Shown piece by piece: positions 2,308-5,044 of a DNA stretch of 10,425 bases (positions within the stretch are counted from its first letter, which is position 1; the number at the start of each line of letters is the position of its first letter). The stretch lies in contig RFHZ01000617.1 of NCBI GenBank assembly GCA_003696125.1, positions 1-10,425 on the forward strand, in the 5' to 3' direction. The stretch is from Nitrospinota bacterium (GTDB lineage: Bacteria > Tectomicrobia > Entotheonellia > J063). The position numbers and the translations under genes were made by a program. The notes under the pieces were generated by a model. That model was not told the DNA's origin. It searched no databases and saw nothing but the letters and a program-made list of their open reading frames with translations.

Positions 2308-3348
<1,041 letters not shown>

Positions 3349-3478: not shown

Positions 3479-3487
3479 GGTTTATAG

Positions 3488-3618
3488 CTGGACAATGTTA
3501 AATTAACCACAGAGTTCGTAGAGAACGCGGAGAGGAACAGCGTTCTTTATTCATCCCAGAACTATCCTCTGCGACCTCAGCGTGCTCTGCGGTAAAATGC
3601 AACTGTAACATTGTCAAG
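3488..3618. repeat. 131-bp MITE-like palindromic intergenic element
   Basis: The ends form a 13-bp terminal inverted repeat with one mismatch: CTGGACAATGTTA (3488-3500) against TAACATTGTCAAG (3606-3618), ten inner bases perfect. The tetramer ATAG abuts both ends (3484-3487 and 3619-3622), as a target-site duplication would. Inside, the left arm carries three 9-nt units ACCACAGAG, TTCGTAGAG, AACGCGGAG (3506-3532). The right arm carries their inverted counterparts CTCTGCGAC, CTCAGCGTG, CTCTGCGGT (3567-3593), and GTTCT/AGAAC (3542-3546 with 3558-3562) pairs in the centre. RNA from either strand could fold into one long imperfect hairpin. There is no coding capacity, so any movement would need a transposase elsewhere. 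From memory, similar CCACAGAG...CTCTGCGG intergenic repeats occur in many environmental bacterial genomes; that was not checked here. Confidence 0.72.
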
Positions 3619-3640
3619 ATAGAGTCGTCATCTCTGTACT
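3611..3640 (+). promoter_or_regulatory. Possible mgtE promoter partly inside the repeat
   Basis: TTGTCA (3611-3616, five of six bases of the -35 consensus) lies in the right terminal repeat. It is followed after 18 bp by TGTACT (3635-3640, four of six of the -10 consensus), 39 bp before the mgtE ATG. If real, insertion of the element gave mgtE its -35 box. The match is weak. Confidence 0.25.
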
Positions 3641-3666
3641 CGTTGGTGAGGGGTGGCAAAAACGAG

Positions 3667-3673
3667 AAGGAAG
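3667..3673 (+). promoter_or_regulatory. Ribosome binding site that decides the mgtE start
   Basis: AAGGAAG ends 6 nt before ATG 3680, an ideal distance. The alternative in-frame GTG at 3653 has its purine-rich stretch (3645-3652) directly abutting it, with no spacing. The ATG is therefore preferred; this removes nine basic residues from the longest reading. Confidence 0.55.
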
Positions 3674-3679
3674 AAAACG

Positions 3680-5044
3680 ATGGAGGCACACCGACAAAAA
3701 TTCTTTGTCACCCTGGAAGCACTTCGCAAGCTGATCCATCGTCAGGCGATTGCCCATATTCGTAATGTGCTTCAAAAGCTTAACCCGAAGGATATTGCCC
3801 ACCTCCTCCCGCATTTCAGCCGGGAAGAGCAACGGCTGCTGTTTGCCCTCATCGATGACCCTGTTCTGGCGGCAGAGGTGCTGCGGGAAACGGATCAGGC
3901 AACGCAACAGGAGCTCTTGAGCCGGCAAACACCGGAGAAGCTCATCGAGATCTTTCGAGAGATGCCCTCCGATGATGTGACCGATATCATCGCTATCCTG
4001 CCCGAGGAGCTGGCCAAGCAGGTCCTGGAGCGCCTCAGTGCCCAGGAAGCCCAGGAGGTGGCAGAACTCCTCAAATATCCCAGCGACACGGCTGGCGGGA
4101 TCATGAATCCTGATTTCCTGGCCTTGCCGGAGACCATGACCGTGGAGGAGGCCATCCGCGAGGTACGCAAGGCGAGCGAAGTGGAGATGGTCTTTTACAT
4201 CTACGTGGTCGATGAGAAGAATCACCTGCGCGGTGTCCTCTCGTTGCGGCAGCTCCTGCTGGCTTCACCGGAGCAGACCCTGCAGGAGATCATGTGGCGA
4301 GATGTGATCAAGGTCAACGTGGCCATGGACCAGGAGGAGGTGGCCCGCATCGTTTCCCGTTACAACTTCGTTGCCATCCCGGTGGTCAACGACGAAGGGG
4401 AACTGGTCGGCATCATCACCGTAGACGATATCATCGATGTCATCCGCGAGGAGGCGACCGAAGATATCTTCCGCATGGCCGGGACGGATGAAGAAGAGCT
4501 CCTCTTTTCCCACTCCATCTTGCGAGTAGCCCGCTTCCGGCTCCCCTGGCTGTTAACCTCGCTGGTTGGGGGCATCATCAGCAGTGAACTGATCTGGCGG
4601 TTTAACTTCGTTATCCGGGACCTGGTCGCCCTGGCCACCTTCATCCCGGTCATCATGGGTATGGGAGGGAATGTCGGTACCCAATCGGCCGCCATCGTGG
4701 TGCGGGGACTGGCCACCGGCCGGATCGATCTCGCTTTGATCGGTCGGACGATTCGACGGGAGGTCTGTACCGGCCTGGTCATGGGGGGGGTCTGCGGCGT
4801 CTTACTGGCTCTTGTTGCCACCCTGCTCCACTGGAATCCTCTACTGGGATTGGTCGTCGGGGTCTCCCTGTTTTTCGCTATCCTGGTAGCGGCCACCATG
4901 GGTACCCTCATGCCGGTCCTCTTCCGCAAGCTCGGTATCGATCCGGCCATCGCCTCCGGCCCCTTTGTCACCACCGCCAACGATATTACCGGTCTGTTGA
5001 TCTACTTCTCCCTGGCCACCCTGATGCTCAGCTATCTGCTCTAA
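3680..5044 (+). CDS. mgtE: Magnesium transporter MgtE
   Basis: MgtE is a dimeric inner-membrane Mg2+ channel/transporter gated by its own cytosolic Mg2+ sensor. The 454-residue protein has the full family layout: an N-terminal superhelical domain (about 10-130), a tandem CBS pair (about 135-255, with VVNDEGELVGIITVDDII near 235-252), a linker with GTDEEE (269-274), then the membrane domain (about 285-454). Signature motifs are PVIMGMGGNVGTQSA (323-337) and GPFVTTANDITGLL (427-440). The Asp of TANDITG is residue 435, matching the pore Mg2+ ligand D432 of Thermus thermophilus MgtE. Acidic residues in the N and CBS domains fit Mg2+ sensing. The gene opens a co-directional cluster with a DASS-like transporter 80 bp downstream. 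No M-box-like leader is visible; the region upstream is occupied by the palindromic repeat. Some family members also pass Co2+. Confidence 0.95.
   Translation: MEAHRQKFFVTLEALRKLIHRQAIAHIRNVLQKLNPKDIAHLLPHFSREEQRLLFALIDDPVLAAEVLRETDQATQQELLSRQTPEKLIEIFREMPSDDVTDIIAILPEELAKQVLERLSAQEAQEVAELLKYPSDTAGGIMNPDFLALPETMTVEEAIREVRKASEVEMVFYIYVVDEKNHLRGVLSLRQLLLASPEQTLQEIMWRDVIKVNVAMDQEEVARIVSRYNFVAIPVVNDEGELVGIITVDDIIDVIREEATEDIFRMAGTDEEELLFSHSILRVARFRLPWLLTSLVGGIISSELIWRFNFVIRDLVALATFIPVIMGMGGNVGTQSAAIVVRGLATGRIDLALIGRTIRREVCTGLVMGGVCGVLLALVATLLHWNPLLGLVVGVSLFFAILVAATMGTLMPVLFRKLGIDPAIASGPFVTTANDITGLLIYFSLATLMLSYLL

Follow-up and report, generated by a model that had tools for sequence, protein, structure and literature searches.

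A palindromic element between mreB and mgtE of a Nitrospinota bacterium is very probably a MITE with IS701-type ends

The DNA analysed here (the window, 10,425 nucleotides from a Nitrospinota bacterium) carries the genes mreB and mgtE, and the gap between them holds a 131 bp element (Table 1). Read base by base, its junctions are gtttATAG/CTGGACAATGTTAAATT...ACTGTAACATTGTCAAG/ATAGagtcg, with slashes marking the element boundaries. The outermost 13 bp, CTGGACAATGTTA (3488-3500) and TAACATTGTCAAG (3606-3618), match in inverted orientation at 12 of 13 positions, and a preliminary description that reported these ends, their ATAG flanks and a length of 131 bp is correct to the base; the inverted terminal repeats are present as described but extend over 17 bp rather than 13, with an inverted match of 14/17. 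As is usual for a MITE, the element is short, non-coding with no ORF filling it, and bordered by terminal inverted repeats. One strand folds with -44.5 kcal/mol and a z-score of -4.35 against shuffles, the palindrome being imperfect. An Rfam search of the window returns zero family matches to the element, and no promoter- or terminator-like site is found on the + strand between mreB and mgtE.

Table 1. Coordinates of the features at the mreB-mgtE locus (positions in the window) and of type-B elements at other loci
Feature	Position	Strand or place	Basis
mreB	2326-3348	upstream flank in coordinates	NCBIfam-confirmed
Target site duplication, left copy ATAG	3484-3487		direct reading; 4 bp length from 68 homologous elements
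Whole MITE, 131 bp, mreB-mgtE intergenic gap	3488-3618		direct reading and host copies with coincident boundaries
Left terminal inverted repeat, 17 bp, CTGGACAATGTTAAATT	3488-3504	+	consensus of the ends CTYGACAATGTTARATT; shared with IS701 elements
Imperfect palindromic core CCACAGAG...CTCTGCGGT	3507-3593		no ORF fills it; core family common to Calditrichota L065, L069
Right terminal inverted repeat, 17 bp, ACTGTAACATTGTCAAG	3602-3618	-	direct reading and end consensus
Target site duplication, right copy ATAG	3619-3622		direct reading
mgtE	3653-5044	next gene after element	NCBIfam-confirmed
Type-B MITE-like copies	L321:1501-1602, L333:1501-1637, L335:1501-1685, L323:1501-1685		ends and 8 bp duplications

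The host assembly is a MAG of 4.18 Mb in 990 contigs that is 94.8% complete. A 139 bp query recovers about 20 clear dispersed copies that for most of their extent share 73-89% identity with the window copy, and CTTGACAATGTTA, with up to two mismatches, occurs 54 times compared with 12 times for a reversed control pattern, which places the repeat far above chance. As the preliminary description had anticipated, the host copies, once aligned, end at identical boundaries that coincide with the ends of the element. Perfect 4 bp duplications flank three complete copies, namely the window copy (ATAG/ATAG), L002 (GTAA/GTAA) and L012 (CTAT/CTAT), while the flanks of three further two-ended copies (L006, L008, L018) agree at three of four bases and those of L004 at two of four. 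Many host copies are devoid of one end. The unpaired ends, which have one or two mismatches, belong to degenerate copies or coding matches and no IS is found with them. Two host copies, L011 and L013, form a tandem pair with a short spacer (contig C808, positions 2-234), complete ends being absent in both. The divergence and truncation of the host copies mark the family as old in the host, and the 73-89% identity together with the many one-ended copies gives no indication that it has moved recently.

A scan of 84,980 GTDB species genomes with the pattern GACAATGTTA N88-118 TAACATTGTC yields 76 loci, of which 73 are real elements once three coding chance matches are removed. According to their record titles, these derive from Anaerolineales/Anaerolineae, other Chloroflexi, Thermoflexales, Armatimonadetes, Calditrichaceae, KSB1, Poribacteria, Eremiobacterota, Planctomycetota, Brocadiia, Xenococcus, Parabeggiatoa, two Jordarchaeia archaea and a 'Deltaproteobacteria' MAG assigned to the phylum of the Calditrichaceae MAG, with the proviso that misbinning may affect some MAG contigs, so that no single locus can be tied to its host with certainty. 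CTYGACAATGTTA is present in 21 of 22 element-bearing genomes, where a control pattern is nearly absent, and a scan of viral contigs for paired ends produces only coding chance matches. The search pattern fixes end positions 4-13; positions 1-3 and 15-17 lie outside this forced part. Nevertheless, across both ends of 78 elements conservation is high at the free positions (1 C 0.89, 2 T 0.98, 15 A 0.87, 16 T 0.99, 17 T 0.98) and drops sharply to background from position 18, which defines the conserved end as the 17 bp sequence CTYGACAATGTTARATT.

Sixty-eight elements have 20 bp readable on both sides, and 51 of these are flanked by an exact 4 bp duplication, whereas 5 bp match once and 3 bp never; the length is the one seen at the window copy, L002 and L012. 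As the duplication lies outside the ends, the unit bounded by the ends moved as a whole. Most duplications read NTAN, but CAAT, TAAA and CTTG are also exact, and thus TA is a preference only while the duplication itself comprises 4 bp. A filled site in Jordarchaeia MAG QZM_A3 (L113) has CTAA on both sides, and the orthologous site in Jordarchaeia MAG RPF2 (L317) is empty with a single CTAA, the joined flanks of the former aligning across the junction to the latter, without gaps over about 15 bp ahead of it and 25 bp beyond it. The single target copy that the preliminary description had sought between mreB and mgtE is therefore seen, at this archaeal locus instead. Flanks from HSG25 and HSG24 (L064, L117) also have orthologous sites that are free of the element, with a junction too diverged for the target to be read, and for L069 in G044 the left flank alone aligns.

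End pairs at wider spacing, followed by a family search, lead to IS701-family transposase genes that are bounded by the same ends in MAGs of Thermoflexales, Brocadiia, Poribacteria and Xenococcus. The Thermoflexales element (L245:752-2307) is 1556 bp long, matches at 19 of 20 end bases, is flanked by GTAC/GTAC, and encodes a 468 aa transposase that scores 223 bits against NF033540 (the IS701 equivalog, cut-off 150) and 1.7e-38 against Pfam DDE_5. The second complete element, from Brocadiia (L282:1283-2857), was found by the family search and is 1575 bp long, with a TTAT/TTAT duplication and a 492 aa frame that scores 218 bits. Two others were found by their ends: the Poribacteria element (L246, 1794 bp) is decayed with a broken frame, and the Xenococcus element (L261) is partial, consisting of an IS701 C-terminal part and the right end. 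In a fifth genome, HSG24, an IS701 C-terminal match is followed downstream by the same right end (L291). The four comparable transposases share 45-68% identity with each other and mostly 25-38% with other IS701 members from the same search, and among other MITE-bearing genomes an IS701 transposase is found in G050, G055, G059 and G062 and partly in G047. The transposase sharing the ends that the preliminary description proposed does exist, albeit in other genomes and in the IS701 family rather than IS200/IS605, IS630 or ISL3.

IS701 elements (NCBIfam NF033540, Pfam DDE_5) have ends of 17-20 bp, CTTGACAATGTTARATTAG, that are identical to those of the MITEs, and they share the 4 bp duplication and an A/T-centred target. 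The window element differs in that it contains no transposase, has a hairpin core that bears no relation to the interior of the IS, and measures 131 bp compared with about 1.56 kb. The right end of the Xenococcus IS is AATCAAATCTAACATTGTCAAG preceded by a GATCGCGAC palindrome and resembles the left half of an 86 bp MITE (L247), which by its sequence looks to be an instance of a MITE derived from an IS end; the Thermoflexales MITE core, judged by eye, is unlike the IS interior. Another Brocadiia IS701 element (L269:1276-2773) has variant ends, CTTGACATTGTCACATT, and represents a sister end type. At the end of contig C105 in the Calditrichota MAG G046 (L158:2353-2575) and in C332:1-127 of the same MAG, two IS701-type ends lie in direct orientation 53 bp apart, at L158 right after an IS701 gene and ahead of an ORF start, MLGDQLNRLFHRELSQGYYSHQQLSDIG, that is cut by the contig end. 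This ORF (MLGDQL...) was initially read as a transposase, a reading that was dropped as it has no family and no relatives. A search of the phylum of G046 finds the tandem-end pattern in G046 alone.

The incomplete host MAG contains no IS701 transposase above the cut-off, only background matches of 26.7 and 22.7 bits, and sub-cut-off matches also occur in 6 of 14 control genomes. A transposase in the same genome, which would be expected beside an IS701 derivative, is not defining for a MITE, as the parent may be lost; in the host it is either lost or missing from the assembly. With no such transposase in the assembly, the copy in the window is probably a relic.

The cores that lie between the ends fall into 18 clusters with no detectable similarity between clusters and are mostly palindromic, and 57 of 78 fold clearly better than shuffles. 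The window core groups with Calditrichota elements L065 and L069, and in G046 the same ends enclose no fewer than two unrelated cores. The CCACAGAG..CTCTGCGG palindrome of the preliminary description is present, but as a putatively exchangeable core it does not define the element. Palindromes of the CACAGAG/CGCAGAG type are also found with other borders around them: among 44 distinct occurrences at the fetched loci, 10 have IS701-type ends upstream, four have a different end termed type B (one has both), and the rest have neither. Directly outside CACAGAG palindromes of Calditrichota (L138:600-629, L185, L302) lies a border of approximately ACTGATGTTACGCA, perhaps a third end type.

Type-B ends belong to a second, very abundant repeat, with 115 end copies in G044, 142 in G051, 159 in G058 and 51-159 per genome across the four genomes counted (G044, G051, G057, G058), and none counted in the host genome. 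Complete copies have GTAACTAYTCAG ends and 8 bp duplications (GTTTTTCC, AAAGTGTT, TTTAAAAG) and, like IS701-type elements, wrap CACAGAG and TGTCATTGCGAG cores, while their ends and duplication length differ. The GTAA ends and 8 bp duplications presumably point to IS66, from which the family is possibly derived. Many IS701-type elements sit within GTAA[CTAY]TCAG, the type-B end, which is thus often their target. Such insertions, at L062, L070, L073, L093, L095, L098, L107, L114, L120, L125 and L130, mark the type-B end as a hot spot at which one transposon inserts into the end of another.

As one end type surrounds many cores and one core occurs in two end types, we infer core exchange between end types as the best reading of these sequences. 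More tentatively, and with the odds somewhat against it, the intergenic palindromes of the CCGCAGAG, TGTCATTGCGAG, TGTCATTCTGAG and ACACGGAT types, which are widespread in the environment, might form a common reservoir of hairpin cores, repeatedly captured and exchanged by several unrelated transposase systems (IS701-type with 4 bp, type-B with 8 bp), with ends and cores evolving as separate modules and crossing from phylum to phylum and between bacteria and archaea. The sharing of core families between two end types, their occurrence without recognised ends, and the 18 unrelated cores within one type of end might also be explained if the core palindrome itself were mobile, as a REP/RAYT-like or other hairpin element that inserts into pre-existing short pairs of IS701-type ends and into other MITEs, the ends being passive. 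This is unlikely, however, because the 4 bp duplication in 51 of 68 elements and the 8 bp duplications of type B lie outside the ends, and no core-specific duplication or boundary is seen. REP palindromes with RAYT are 20-40 bp long and carry a GTAG or CGTC tag (PMC3733652); they resemble the window element as dispersed intergenic palindromes, but it alone has terminal inverted repeats and an exact 4 bp duplication, so that a REP/RAYT assignment was rejected.

The strong fold (z -4.35) and the position between two genes could likewise suggest a cis-acting RNA or DNA hairpin, such as a terminator, a processing site or an mgtE leader, which is under selection at the locus and whose repeats are coincidental, but about 20 dispersed copies beside unrelated sequence, the target duplications, the empty Rfam search and the lack of a terminator-like site on the + strand make this very improbable. 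Least probable of all is a MITE of the IS630/Tc1 type with a 2 bp TA duplication and chance agreement of the neighbouring bases, for although TA is central in most targets, the bases beside it match too, in 51 of 68 exact 4-mers that include CAAT, TAAA and CTTG with no central TA, the transposases found are of IS701, and the observed empty site has CTAA; an IS630-type assignment was accordingly dropped.

The element is therefore very probably a MITE whose IS701-type ends enclose a hairpin core without genes, a reading which is about as well supported as sequence allows, and it was probably mobilised in trans by an IS701-family transposase. The non-autonomous transposed element with a 4 bp duplication that was first proposed is borne out by what can be seen directly, namely dispersed copies that share their end boundaries, exact duplications, an empty site elsewhere and, in other genomes, autonomous IS701 elements whose ends are identical and which are likewise flanked by duplications. 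None of the outcomes that the preliminary description named as refuting it was observed. Points against it are that the host has no IS701 transposase above the cut-off, that its copies bear no trace of a recent transposition, that the search pattern itself fixed part of the end, and that the empty site is from another locus in other organisms. It is proposed that the element retains just two transposase-recognised CTYGACAATGTTARATT ends around its core, and that an IS701-family DDE transposase supplied in trans would bind both ends and move the unit. The unit would then be joined to a target opened with a 4 bp stagger, preferably around TA, and repair would leave ATAG on each side. The past action of this transposase subgroup in the host, where no copy is assembled, is something we infer, as is the choice between cut-and-paste and replicative movement.

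The element resembles prokaryotic MITEs such as MITEAba12 (PMC6382973) in being short and non-coding, with terminal inverted repeats, a target duplication and dependence on an IS transposase, but whereas those have one conserved sequence per lineage, here one end sequence encloses 18 unrelated core families in bacteria and archaea. No earlier description of these ends was found in the open-access literature, where the papers that combine IS701, 'miniature inverted' and MITE are, by title and abstract, not on such an element, and those listed as containing GACAATGTTA are, by title, not on one either. What is new here is the apparently exchangeable cores, the insertion into ends that belong to another abundant MITE family, and the taxonomic breadth.

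Overall, these results connect a set of intergenic palindromes of uncultured bacteria with a particular transposase family, end sequence and target rule, and offer a route by which some intergenic hairpins of formerly unclear mobility can spread. The spread of such palindromes is now testable by means of CTYGACAATGTTARATT pairs, the 4 bp duplication and an IS701 partner. If ends and cores truly exchange, MITEs would have a modular make-up, and what is selected in a hairpin core may be a property beyond its sequence, for example its ability to hold both ends together or to resist nucleases of the host.
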